Below the pieces are notes generated by a model that was not told the origin of the DNA, ran no database searches, and worked only from the letters and a program-made list of their open reading frames with translations. Below are positions 1,766 to 12,100 of a stretch of DNA of 64,000 nucleotides, piece after piece; within the stretch, counting starts at the first letter, position 1; each line of letters opens with the position of its first letter. The position numbers and the translations under genes are program-made. This stretch comes from an uncultured Fodinibius sp. (GTDB lineage: Bacteria > Bacteroidota > Rhodothermia > Balneolales > Balneolaceae), in NCBI GenBank assembly GCA_913057775.1, contig CAJXOG010000008.1, forward strand, positions 1 through 64,000, in the 5' to 3' direction.

Positions 1766-2593
1766 TTATTCGCCTTCTTTTATTTGCTCTTCGGAGTTAT
1801 CGGAATCAACATTTCCCAATTTATAATCCAGTTTTTTTAGCAGTCTGAAAGAGGGTTTACGATAAATACCATCCATGGAATAAACTTTATGAATAGCTTC
1901 CCGTGCTTTATCCAGTTGTTCAATGTTGATATAGGCATTCCCCATATACCAATATGCTTTTTCTTCTAAGACATCTCTTTTAGTGTTTCTTTTTATAACT
2001 GCCTTAAATGATTCGATCGACTCACCGAACCCTCCGCTATTGTATTGTATAATGCCTTTATTTAGATAAGCTTTTGTAGCGGCAGACTCGTCTCCGTATT
2101 TGTTTATAATTTTATCATAGGCAGCAATAGCTTTAGATATATCACCGGAAAGTGCGGCTTCGAATCCTCGGTTGAGTAGTGAATCTGCTGGAAGTGTTTC
2201 TGTTTTTTGGCTGCGAAATACTTCTGCAGAGGAAAGATTCTCTGCCAGATTAAATTGGCCGGGTACTTCACTCTGTAATGATTTATTCGTATCAAGTTGA
2301 AAGAAGTTGATTGAAACAACTAGCACCGCAACCGCAGCAGCGGCCGCCATCCATTTCCAGGAATTCTGAATTGAATAAATAATACCGTTTTCTTCAGCAG
2401 ACGTGGAGTTATTGTTGGAAGAACGTTTTTCGAGAATAGATTTTACACCTAACTCAGTCTTTAAAAGCTCAATATAGTCAGGGTGCTGGAGAAGTTTTTC
2501 CCAAAGTTTTTGGGCTTCCTCCTCCGACAGTTTGCCTTTAACATAGGCATCAATTTCTTTTTCCAGTTCTATGTCTCTTGACATTTTGTTCAT
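1766..2593 (-). CDS. Membrane anti-sigma-like protein with periplasmic TPR domain
   Basis: About 275 residues: a charged cytoplasmic N-terminus (IDAYVKGKLSEEEAQKLWEKLLQHPDY, like the anti-sigma N-terminal helices found beside ECF sigma factors), one membrane segment (WMAAAAAVAVLVVSINFF, around residues 85-105), then a periplasmic TPR region (LNRGFEAALSGDISKAIAAYDKII and following repeats). No zinc-binding HxxxCxxC motif is visible, so it is not a classical ZAS protein. It lies 94 bp downstream of the ECF sigma gene on the same strand, which supports a sigma/anti-sigma pair; this is inference from context. The longest frame begins with TTG at 2599, but the ATG at 2591-2593 is preferred and another ATG is at 2582-2584. 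Confidence 0.7.
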   Translation of the reverse strand: MNKMSRDIELEKEIDAYVKGKLSEEEAQKLWEKLLQHPDYIELLKTELGVKSILEKRSSNNNSTSAEENGIIYSIQNSWKWMAAAAAVAVLVVSINFFQLDTNKSLQSEVPGQFNLAENLSSAEVFRSQKTETLPADSLLNRGFEAALSGDISKAIAAYDKIINKYGDESAATKAYLNKGIIQYNSGGFGESIESFKAVIKRNTKRDVLEEKAYWYMGNAYINIEQLDKAREAIHKVYSMDGIYRKPSFRLLKKLDYKLGNVDSDNSEEQIKEGE

Positions 2594-2687
2594 TCCCAAA
2601 TGTTAAATTATATGCTTTAAATAGTGTTAAACGATCTTAATATCTTACGGTCTGTAGGTAAGACCCTTGAGAAACCCAATCCTTACA

Positions 2688-3233
2688 TTATAATTTACTT
2701 TTTTCTTGGTAGCAGTCTTTAAGTTTTTGAATTAGTCGATGTTTCCGTGTCCAAACGTTGTTAACACTGATATCAAAGTGTTTTGCCACTTTTTTAGCAT
2801 GTGAGTCAGGGTGATCAAACAAATACTGCATAAATTCCTGATATTTCTCTTTAAGCTGATTTAAACACCACTCAAGCAGTCGTTCCTGTTCTTCATCCAG
2901 CAGCGATTGCAGCTGGGTAGGGGCCTGTTGGTGATCATCGGGGATTTCATTTGTCGCCTCAGGGCGTTTTTTCTTCTGCATTTTAAGGTAATTATTTTTG
3001 CATATCGACAGAATATACGAGACTACCTGGTCGGGATTATTCACTCGATCTTTCTTAATAACCTCAAGCGATGTAAGAAGAGAGTCCTGAGCACAATCTT
3101 CTGCATCAGACCGATTTGCGTTCATGTGGATACGAAGAAATGCTATTAACCTTGGGCGGAGCGCCTCTATGATTTTGTTTGCCTCTTGAGTATTGTTCTC
3201 TTGTACGGCTGAAACTAAATTCGCGTAGTCCAT
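2688..3233 (-). CDS. ECF-type sigma-70 family RNA polymerase sigma factor
   Basis: The 181-residue product has the two sigma domains of ECF factors. Region 2 is RLIAFLRIHMNANRSDAEDCAQDSLLTSLEVIKK with the conserved DAEDxxQD helix around residues 42-50. Region 4 contains LNQLKEKYQEFMQYLFDHPDSHAKKVAKHFDISVNNVWTRKHR, a helix-turn-helix that recognises the -35 element. Region 4 is atypical in spacing, resembling the Bacteroidota group that sits beside TPR anti-sigma and CHAT genes. It is followed by the membrane anti-sigma-like gene, probably in one operon, and is divergent from scpA across about 150 bp. Target promoters are unknown. Confidence 0.88.
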   Translation of the reverse strand: MDYANLVSAVQENNTQEANKIIEALRPRLIAFLRIHMNANRSDAEDCAQDSLLTSLEVIKKDRVNNPDQVVSYILSICKNNYLKMQKKKRPEATNEIPDDHQQAPTQLQSLLDEEQERLLEWCLNQLKEKYQEFMQYLFDHPDSHAKKVAKHFDISVNNVWTRKHRLIQKLKDCYQEKSKL

Positions 3234-8855: not shown

Positions 8856-9031
8856 GTATTATTTAATAAAATGCGAACATTTTGTTGCGTATAACTAAAC
8901 CGCCTGAATATATACATAGAATCCAGCAAAAGGTAAAAAGTTTGGCTTTTCTGACAATTTATAGAATATTGAGATCAGTAGTTATTCTTAGAAATGTGAA
9001 CAAAATAATTCAAATAAATCAGGAGGATATT

Positions 9032-9118
9032 ATGGTTGATTTTGATAAACAGTTTTCATTGGCTTTCCCTGATCCCGAGCAAACGGGTGGGGATGATGAC
9101 GATGATACCGGGGGATAA
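9032..9118 (+). CDS. 28-residue acidic micro-peptide between two CHAT genes
   Basis: The ATG at 9032 is preceded by AGGAGG at 9021-9026, a near-perfect Shine-Dalgarno at good distance, and the frame ends at TAA 9116-9118, followed 26 bases later by a strong intrinsic terminator. The peptide begins MVDFDKQF, has a proline-rich middle (FPDPEQ) and ends TGGDDDDDTGG. It has no signal peptide or membrane segment. A longer frame from 8882 has no ribosome site and is less likely. It lies divergent from CHAT gene 1 and convergent with CHAT gene 2. I do not recognise a family. A peptide substrate, signal or inhibitor of the flanking CHAT proteins is an inference from position only. Confidence 0.7.
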   Translation: MVDFDKQFSLAFPDPEQTGGDDDDDTGG

Positions 9119-9144
9119 CACTCTAGCCAATTAAAATTTATCTG

Positions 9145-9173
9145 AAGCCATGCTGTTACGGCATGGCTTTTTT
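9145..9173 (+). terminator. Intrinsic terminator of the micro-peptide gene
   Basis: AAGCCATGC at 9145-9153 pairs with GCATGGCTT at 9161-9169 around a 7-base loop, and six T residues follow at 9168-9173. The U-run is on the plus strand, so it ends the transcript of the 28-residue peptide and overlaps the stop codon of the convergent CHAT gene 2. Confidence 0.85.
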
Positions 9174-12100
9174 ATTGGCCGATAAAAACAAACGGTGCCC
9201 AGTATTTAGGATGGGCATACTCAGCCCGTTGAATCATATTTTGTTTGGCTTGCTGTAAAGCTACGGGCATAATAGTTCCGCCATTATGGAGAGTGTAAAA
9301 GTCACGCATAAACCGTGCTGTAGATCGATCGTTTACCCTCCAAAGAGAGACCAGCAAGTTGCGGGCTCCTGCATATAGGAAGGCGCGACTTAGCCCAACG
9401 ATACCCTCTCCTTTTTTAAGTTTACCCATGCCGGTATTGCAGGCACTGAGCGTAACAAGGTCGCACTGCAGCTGTAGGTTATAAATCTCCGAGACATATA
9501 ACGTACCATCTTCCTGCTCCTCGGGTGGGGAAAAGAGAATTCCAGACTGTTCCGGATGCTTTTCATGCAAAAAAGCGTGGGTGGCAAAGTGAATATATCG
9601 ATAGTCAGTAAGAGATGCCTCCTTAAATGTTGATTCGGTAGCTTCTTGGTCAACAAACAGATCCGCTTCATCTTTTTTTGATTTGAGAAAGGAAAAGAAT
9701 CCGTCGGGGCTGTTAAACAGTTCCTCCAAACGTTGTGCTTCTATTTTGTTAAAAAGAAGCGGAGAAATGGGTCGACCAATCTCTGGATAGACTTCCCGGC
9801 GTTGGGAAGCGGTAAGATCTTTAAACCCGGGTGCAAAAGCTACAAGCGTTTTCTTTTTAAAAGATTTTTTCTGATGAGCCCGAAGCTCCAGGTATCCCGC
9901 TGAAGGCACGTAGCTTACGCTGTACTTGTTGAGCAAGTATGGCAGATTGTGGAATTGTTTCTTTTCACTTTTTGATGTCGGATCTGTAAGCAATGCCTCA
10001 AAGGGTAGATAGTGTAGCGAACCCGAGGGAATGATGAGGAGGTTTTCACCTGTAATATAATCTGCTATAGGATCAACGAGCTGTTGATACAGCTCATGAC
10101 TTTGTTTTGCAAAGGTATCCACCGAAGTGGTTTTGAGGGTTGTATTTCGAAAATTGGTAATGGTTTTATCCAGTAGCGAGTCAGCGGCAACTTCCTGTAT
10201 TTCAAAAGATTCCTTGCTGATTATAAAAGCATGAAGAGATTCCTCCCCAAAGAAATACGAAACTATTGTTTGAGAGGGAGTTAAATGGTTTTGCTGGATT
10301 TCCGAAATATTGGCAACAGGAGGGTCATATTTCAGACCATAGTATTTTGGGTAGTCATCTTCCAGCTTTTGGATATGATTTTGTAATGATTTCCGAGCAT
10401 GAAAAAGCGAATCCTGCAGAGATATCCTTTTCAGGGAATCGCCAGTCATGCCCCGAACCGTAAATCCGGAAAGCTGTTGTTGCAAATCTGTAACGGATGC
10501 GCGTAATTTGTTTTCGCGCTCAATAAGCGAGTCCGGAATCTGTGCAAACTTTTGATTATTCAGCTTCTGTATTTGTTCCAGCAGAATTTGGTTACGGCTC
10601 TTCTGGGCAAAATAGAATAGGTGATGCTTATAGTCTTTATCCCCAGTTTGTTGAAGGAGCGTGAGAGCAGTCTTAAATCCCTTCCGGTAGATATCAACCG
10701 TACGCTCCCGGAGTAAAAATTTTGATTTACTGCGGTCCAGCGATCGCTGTAGTTCATCGATAAAGCCCACGGCCTGCAGGTAGGTTTGCAGGGATTGGTC
10801 GAGTTGTTTAGTATTTCCACTTTGATTGCCTGCTTCATAGAGCGCTTCGCCTTTAAATCGCAAGGTGTTAAGCAGCAGTTCGGGATATACTACATTTTCG
10901 AGAGAGAGTTCCTGGAATGGACTTTCCACCTTGTAATTGGTTAGAAGCACTTCCATCGCCCGACGGTAATAATTAAGTGCTTCTTGATGGTTTTCCATAT
11001 TGGCATATATTTTACCGATTTTGGAGTAGGTGTCTCCAATAAATGGATGATTGGGAGAAAGCATCTGTCGATTGATATCGAGGTCTTGAAAGTAAAAATC
11101 GAGCGCTTTGTTATAAGCACCTTTCTGTCCATAAGCCTGGCCCAGATTGGCATAGACGTTCGCCAGCTCAGGATGTCCATCGGGAAAACGCTTTTGATAG
11201 ATGTTTTTTGATTTTAGATAGTAGGTTATGGCCTTATCATACTGCTCGATATCCGAGTATGTGGCGCCTATGTTTTGGTATCCAACGGCCACTTCCGGAT
11301 GATTTTCACCAAGCACTCTTTCTTTGATTTCCAATGATTTCTCGAGGTATTTTGCGGCCTCCTCCATCTCCCCCATTTCGGAGTAGACTACGCCAATATT
11401 GTTGTATCCGGCGGCAACCAGGCGGTGGTTTTCTCCATGGAAAGACGCCAACACATTGGTTGCGTTCATCATGTTTTCGAGTGCCCGCTGGTATTCACTT
11501 TGATAATAGTACACCAATGCCAGATTGTTATAAAGAATAGACAGGTCGGGATGGGGATTCGGAAGTCGTTGCTGATCCATCTCGAGAGCGAGCCGTAAAA
11601 ATTTGAGTGCTTTGTTATTCTGTCCCATTTTTTGATGGGCAGTGCCGCGTCCGTTATAAATACGGCTTAACAACGCTTGATCTTCAAGTCCGCTGCGATG
11701 ATAGGTATTCTGGGCATTAGAAAACTGTGTAATAGCCTTCTTGTAGTTTCCCTCTGATAAATACACCTCACCAATGCCGGTGTCCATTCGGACTCTAAAT
11801 AACGTGCTATTCTCAACCGAATCTGCCAGCGCTAATCCCTTATGATGCCAATCAAGTGCGGTTTGATATTCGGCCTTGGCCTCTGCCAAAATCCCTTTTT
11901 GATGATAATAGCGGAGTTTAAAAATATTACCATCAGGAAAGTTTTCAGTGGAAAGTGACCAGGCCTTTTCAAGAAATGTTGCGGCCGCGTCGAGATCGTC
12001 TTGGTCGGCCTTGTTCAGGCTGATCTGAAAGAGCGCATCGCGTTGCTCTTTGATGTCGGGTTGCTCCTTAAAAAAATCAGCTGCCTGCTGATAATAATAG

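Follow-up and report, generated by a model that had tools for sequence, protein, structure and literature searches.

The 64,000-nucleotide stretch of an uncultured Fodinibius genome analysed here (the window; genome G000, with G005 as its closest relative, and Fodinibius taken as equivalent to Aliifodinibius) contains a gene of 28 codons between two genes for TPR-CHAT proteins, CHAT-1 and CHAT-2 (Table 1). It runs from an ATG to a TAA stop, translates as MVDFDKQFSLAFPDPEQTGGDDDDDTGG, and points away from CHAT-1 (divergent) and towards CHAT-2 (convergent). The Shine-Dalgarno AGGAGG lies inside the block AATCAGGAG..ATTATG, and the element TAAAAAGTTTG-N15-TATAGAATATT, further upstream, probably acts as a promoter. 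Downstream, the arms GAAGCCATGC and GCATGGCTTT at 9144-9170 form a hairpin of 12 pairs, six of them G-C, followed by a run of T. This hairpin reaches the stop codon of CHAT-2 and is the strongest terminator match in the scanned stretch. All the signals listed by the first-pass annotation (the AGGAGG, the ATG, the 28-codon frame and the terminator) were found in place. Across relatives, the order ruvB, membrane TPR protein, ECF sigma factor, scpA, M28 peptidase, CHAT-1, peptide, (CHAT-2), ftsY is largely conserved.

Table 1. Features of the peptide locus, with positions in the window.
Feature	Position	Strand	Basis or remark
TPR protein with one likely membrane segment, anti-sigma-like, adjoining the sigma gene	1766..2599	-	Homologue beside CHAT-3
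ECF sigma factor of the conserved locus	2688..3233	-	Homologue beside CHAT-3
CHAT-1, exported TPR-CHAT protein, 970 aa	5943..8855	-	Pfam, orthologues, AlphaFold2 model; the gene that the peptide accompanies
Promoter-like block	8934..8970	+	Alignment; conserved ahead of the peptide gene in ten Fodinibius species
Shine-Dalgarno AGGAGG	9021..9026	+	Within a block conserved in Fodinibius and one other genus
28-aa peptide gene	9032..9118	+	ORF translation, orthologues, dN/dS
Intrinsic terminator-like hairpin with T run	9144..9173	+	Hairpin scan; similar hairpin in G003
CHAT-2, second exported TPR-CHAT protein, 1027 aa	9172..12255	-	Pfam, species comparison; dispensable for peptide presence

On sequence criteria, this is a genuine monocistronic small gene, of a length that gene finders easily miss. 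Within the 64 kb window, only two frames qualify as a short ORF with a low-complexity tail: that of the peptide and an in-frame stretch at the end of a longer gene. This rarity, the conservation of the frame and its ribosome site, and dN/dS values below 1 agree with the first-pass view that the combined signals exceed chance. A longer frame with an N-terminal signal was rejected: in G000 the reading frame stays open as far back as 8882, but this extension is unconserved, and the ribosome site is positioned at the ATG. No gene on the same strand lies between the peptide and ftsY, which makes a leader-peptide (attenuator) role for a downstream gene unlikely.

Copies within the genus were recovered by searching with the peptide, then with CHAT-2 and the ribosome-site pattern. 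CHAT-1 is present in 12/12 Fodinibius genomes searched, and the peptide is clear in ten of them, degenerate and without a ribosome site in one (G001), and absent from one (G011). Together with a copy in another genus (G021), these ten, the window's own included, form the eleven closest members, such as MFDFNEEYFSLAMPDPEQTGGDGDDDDTGSVT, MFDLNKDQFSLALPDQDGGSTKEDDDDAGSVS, MFDFNEEQLALAMPDQDDGSTADDDDSTTAT and MFKFKESKPFSPVIAALPDQDTGTSEDDDSTVES. The ribosome block AATCAGGAGAyCATTATG is nearly invariant in Fodinibius and is also kept in one other genus; the promoter-like block is nearly invariant in the Fodinibius alignment. The first-pass annotation looked to absence of the frame and ribosome site beside CHAT genes of relatives as evidence against its proposal, and both are present there. 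Ala-x-Pro-Asp is found in 11/11 closest members, while the tail varies in sequence and stays acidic. Gly-Gly precedes the acidic run in only 4/11 and is not conserved before a mature part, so the suggestion that Gly-Gly/acid repeats are cleavage or recognition sites is not supported. A profile search of 394 genomes of the phylum gave no members by sequence beyond the genus and G021, and the weaker matches fetched had no CHAT gene nearby.

The wider family is defined by position, size and composition. CHAT-1 has a single orthologue in 41 of 92 Balneolaceae genomes, spread over 10 of 21 genera, and a reading of the gaps shows a divergent ORF of 28-49 codons before nearly all of these genes, for example MKDTLKLNITYKAPDGDDKTDNDDDDDGGKTGGTPIGG, MNYIISNTEKFNIPDGDGKPGSGSGSGKEDTGGTGEV, MNTFRLKKTAVYKNPDTDPDSDPDNPDTDPPKPDNG and MNTLQKDRYWKFNRVDEEDKTDPPPPPPPKPPHGGGGG. 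Sequence searches could not link these family-level ORFs to the window peptide, and similarity across genera is very low. Counted by hand, a clear divergent peptide occurs at 39/41 CHAT-1 loci, the exceptions being the degenerate G001 copy and G011, which has none. An automatic scan reaches the same 39/41 by way of a somewhat different set, since it lost G045, where the edge of the scanned region truncates the peptide, and included the degenerate G001. In the same scan, 1/41 loci score in the other, co-directional orientation, and a match arises in 24 of 2050 dinucleotide shuffles (1.2%). Where CHAT-1 is missing, the scan gave 0/20 family genomes, at sites that were also read directly. The association of peptide with CHAT-1 has a Fisher p of 3.7e-14, a value that overstates the strength of the link because it ignores the relatedness of the 41 loci.

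Among 13 close pairs, dN/dS ranges from 0.12 to 0.43, with dN somewhat lowered by aligning the pairs as proteins first, and most changes fall at third codon positions. Judged by these substitution patterns, the peptide gene is under purifying selection. The alternative that there is no protein gene, the frame having arisen by chance or lying incidentally within a small RNA, draws on the extreme shortness of the frame and on the many copies outside Fodinibius in which the ribosome site is unclear. It is barely credible against the dominance of third-position substitutions, the near-invariance of the ribosome block and ATG in Fodinibius, and the excess of 39/41 loci over shuffled sequence.

In composition, the 38 peptides analysed contain no cysteine and have a mean net charge of -5; their short N-terminal parts are rich in Lys, Leu, Asn and Phe, and their tails contain 25% Gly, 24% Asp and 15% Pro. 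A Pro-Asp or Pro-Gly core precedes this Gly/Asp/Pro-rich tail in 35 of 39 peptides. Taken together, these features describe a family that changes fast and, by its predicted products, consists of tiny acidic peptides without structure, encoded next to one exported TPR-CHAT protease across the Balneolaceae. At TPR-CHAT loci outside the family, an automatic scan of those with a placeable CHAT ORF (about 30 that failed the motif test were skipped) found no comparable divergent ORF with a ribosome site. In one MAG, which bears the label Rhodothermaceae, a low-complexity antisense ORF overlaps a CHAT-1-like gene near the start of that gene (L143:1458-1608, minus strand; ..PAPDSDPDSHPQPQ..), possibly a distant peptide, which was left out of the counts.

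Comparison of gene neighbourhoods separates the two CHAT genes. In G006 and G007, CHAT-1 and the peptide are present and CHAT-2 is absent; CHAT-2-type genes adjoining ftsY in genomes without CHAT-1 have no peptide; and in G028, where ftsY is on another contig, the peptide is still beside CHAT-1. From these cases it follows that the peptide accompanies CHAT-1. A link to CHAT-2, or to a pair of CHAT genes, is ruled out by G006, G007 and the peptide-less CHAT-2-type loci, and a link to ftsY is ruled out by G028 and by the ftsY sites that have neither CHAT-1 nor peptide. The first-pass proposal of a tie to one or both CHAT proteins thus survives for the upstream divergent CHAT-1 and fails for CHAT-2. 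These patterns suggest a peptide dedicated, in each case, to its own CHAT-1 protease.

The peptide might instead act on another cytoplasmic target, such as a sigma factor, an anti-sigma-like protein, the ribosome or RNA, and share only regulation and position with CHAT-1. Such a role would suit an acidic, leaderless product, a divergent promoter region common to both genes and a sigma gene in the same locus. It fits poorly with the disappearance of the peptide together with CHAT-1 at sites where ftsY, scpA, the M28 gene and often sigma remain, and with its persistence beside CHAT-1 when ftsY is elsewhere; we consider it improbable.

CHAT domains are caspase-like peptidases. As the first-pass annotation had it, both flanking genes encode CHAT proteins with N-terminal signal sequences: Pfam CHAT matches CHAT-1 at E 9.2e-69, alongside many TPR models, and CHAT-2 at E 2e-63. 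The His809/Cys860 dyad is invariant in 41/41 CHAT-1 orthologues. In the Sec-type signal of CHAT-1, the likely cleavage site is followed by Gln at +1 (Q21, with conservation of at least 90%), which under the Bacteroidetes Q-rule, a Gln following the signal cleavage site (PMC5837995), indicates Sec export. Two inserts, near the catalytic residues in sequence, occur in 41/41 CHAT-1 proteins and 0/25 CHAT-2-type proteins: an LFGEDGYL-like segment between the catalytic residues, and a GxWxxxLxWxGWY-like segment of about 24 residues after the cysteine. They are candidates for a specific docking surface, in a comparison confounded with ancestry. PADLOC matched no system-specific model, giving generic TPR models and one weak partial match for the proteins and nothing for the peptide.

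Structurally, the AlphaFold2 model of CHAT-1 has a mean pLDDT of 79. Its CHAT half resembles Csx29 (Z 25-27) and separase (ctSPD, Z 23). Its TPR half resembles kinesin light chain, at a Z of about 24 with an rmsd of 2.2 A across 200 residues, and LGN/Pins, at Z values up to 28.7. Sequence searches with CHAT-1 also returned the TPRs of LGN, kinesin light chain and Rap. The LGN/Pins and kinesin light chain domains, the closest to the TPR half in both sequence and predicted fold, have been solved with short peptide or protein ligands, and KLC2 structures include tryptophan-acidic peptides. The top Foldseek match of the model is DdvA, a transmembrane anti-sigma factor (PDB 8rot/8rw5) that shares a similar fold and is tied to ECF sigma control. 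However, the rmsd is 27 A, DdvA is absent among the VIA-align matches listed, no anti-sigma domain was found in CHAT-1, and the sigma gene of the CHAT-1 locus lies several genes away.

The main difficulty, as far as predicted signals go, is compartment: CHAT-1 is exported and the peptide has no signal. None of 38 peptides tested (0/38) has a hydrophobic segment of export strength; the best 12-residue hydropathy is 1.31 and the median -0.21, against 2.09 for CHAT-1 and 2.72 for a CHAT-3 lipopeptide (described below). A Sec signal like that of Phr/RRNPP-type secreted signal peptides is likewise absent from these 38. Direct contact would therefore need binding before export or some other export route. 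In G028, the place where ftsY is expected, next to the CHAT-1 peptide, is taken by a C39-peptidase ABC exporter together with an HlyD-like protein (L132:5438-8736), a single case. Export by a C39, double-glycine route, considered because of this exporter, was rejected as a general mechanism, as neither G000 nor G005 has a Peptidase_C39.

The G028 exporter and HlyD-like protein, the size of the peptide and the occasional GG after its N-terminal part could also be read as signs of a RiPP or bacteriocin precursor (double-glycine, graspetide or other), with the N-terminal part as leader and the Ser/Thr/Asp/Gly tail as core. This is very improbable: the exporter is adjacent in one genome only, the window's genome and G005 are without a C39 peptidase, and the GG is unconserved. 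The neighbours scanned (RuvB, TPR, sigma, ScpA, M28, CHAT, FtsY, CDP-OH transferase, NUDIX and HTH proteins) include no modifying enzyme, and no Pfam or NCBIfam precursor model matched, the NCBIfam run covering five peptides of the family.

A second TPR-CHAT locus of the same genome, CHAT-3, is flanked by homologues of the sigma factor (37% identity) and of the membrane TPR protein (30%), the latter inferred to have an anti-sigma role. Sigma, membrane-TPR and TPR-CHAT genes thus form a recurrent module (window 1766-3233; L313:6649-7404 and 11478-12044), and the linkage of ECF sigma and membrane TPR genes to the locus suggests a regulatory circuit. The sigma gene also occurs at sites without CHAT (G017, G033). 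Immediately upstream of CHAT-3 and co-directional with it, many Balneolaceae have short lipoprotein ORFs with disordered tails, such as MKSFTHKLLAIIFSIALFTGCASVTDPGLDQNQPDTDKPVLEVQNPDFGTDAGMDPIVDRPE. These lipopeptides of about 60-76 aa share the lipobox ..GC-ASVTD and the C-terminus MDPI.D.P, and have no Pfam or NCBIfam match; they came to light on inspection of the intergenic region, the low-complexity scan having missed them. There is one copy in the window's genome (L313:10841-11026, minus strand, contig C2) and up to six near-identical copies in relatives (six in G021), with counts that are lower bounds in G003 (contigs C34/C38), G005 (C2/C4) and G009 (C9/C3), where the drafts appear broken inside the lipopeptide array. 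Relatives are found at L314, L315, L316, L318, L323, L324, L333, L335, L336 and L338, the last with no CHAT-3 match within the stretch fetched. G001 and G011, in which the CHAT-1 peptide is degenerate or missing, also have the most divergent CHAT-3 lipopeptides of the genus (L129, L128, L316, L324). One genome thus has two different forms of a short disordered peptide beside a TPR-CHAT gene, a recurrence that supports the idea of such peptides as ligands.

Known CHAT-fold proteases offer two points of comparison. In type III-E CRISPR, with its CASP-sigma, Csx30 is a sigma-factor inhibitor and is cut by Csx29 (PMC10028731). Like Csx29, CHAT-1 is a TPR-CHAT protein with a His/Cys dyad and a similar predicted fold (Z 27), and its locus holds a dedicated partner gene and a sigma factor. 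Unlike Csx29, CHAT-1 is exported, and its putative partner is a disordered peptide of 28-49 aa, where Csx30 is a large folded protein of 565 residues; the ORFs neighbouring CHAT-1 showed no CRISPR effector. Separase, whose CHAT fold the CHAT-1 model shares, is held by the disordered inhibitor securin, bound along the protease, and a Leu-Pro-Glu docking motif is common to securin and Scc1 (PMC6858450). The hydrophobic-Pro-Asp core of the peptide is reminiscent of this motif by analogy only: securin is much longer and has no sequence relationship to the peptide, and separase is not a bacterial exported protein.

The main rival to cytoplasmic binding of the CHAT-1 precursor combines export by another route with a substrate role. 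The peptide would then be a substrate or signal of CHAT-1 outside the cytoplasm, and a product of its cleavage would inform the cell, with the ECF sigma/anti-sigma-like pair nearby as a possible receiver. Consistent with this are the export of CHAT-1 with an intact dyad, the ECF sigma and membrane TPR genes in the conserved locus, whose homologues flank CHAT-3, the lipoprotein signal of the CHAT-3 peptides, and the precedent of Csx30, a CHAT substrate whose inhibition of a sigma factor ends when it is cleaved (PMC10028731). Against it, the peptide has no signal sequence, the lack of Peptidase_C39 excludes double-glycine export in the window's genome and its closest relative, and the sigma gene is also found at CHAT-less sites. 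We regard this alternative as rather unlikely.

Tentatively, and at somewhat less than even confidence, we favour a peptide that acts as a linear ligand through contact with the CHAT-1 precursor in the cytoplasm, a compartment preferred because CHAT-1 has an export signal and the peptide has none. Its N-terminal part and Pro-Asp core would dock on the TPR superhelix or the CHAT domain, and the flexible acidic, Gly- and Pro-containing tail would lie along a groove. Bound in this manner, the peptide might keep the protease in check, either as a small inhibitor akin to securin or as a holding factor, or serve as its cognate substrate. Staphostatins, cytoplasmic inhibitors of secreted cysteine proteases, offer an analogy for a leaderless inhibitor that keeps an exported protease from becoming active too early. 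They differ in being folded proteins of about 105 residues, whereas the peptide is disordered, and their proteases are unrelated to CHAT-1.

Curated families (Pfam, NCBIfam, PADLOC) gave no match to the peptide, and a literature search, with most subscription papers outside its scope, found no paper on the peptide or on CHAT in Fodinibius. A CHAT protease with a dedicated partner is already known, and the leaderless peptide beside CHAT-1 would be a variant of that arrangement. To our knowledge, CHAT proteases are common in bacteria and very few have a known partner or substrate. The conserved pairing of an exported TPR-CHAT protease with a peptide of 28-49 aa therefore provides a concrete candidate ligand, small enough to synthesise. 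It also illustrates a protein family that stays recognisable by position and composition after sequence similarity is lost, a class easily missed in annotation. More broadly, it is conceivable, though doubtful, that the TPR-CHAT proteases of Balneolaceae form a signalling system in which dedicated, fast-evolving, short disordered peptides, leaderless for CHAT-1 and tandem lipopeptides for CHAT-3, serve as cognate ligands or substrates and connect to pairs of ECF sigma and anti-sigma-like proteins. If true, such TPR-CHAT/peptide signalling at the cell envelope would give bacteria an equivalent of separase-securin or Csx29-Csx30.
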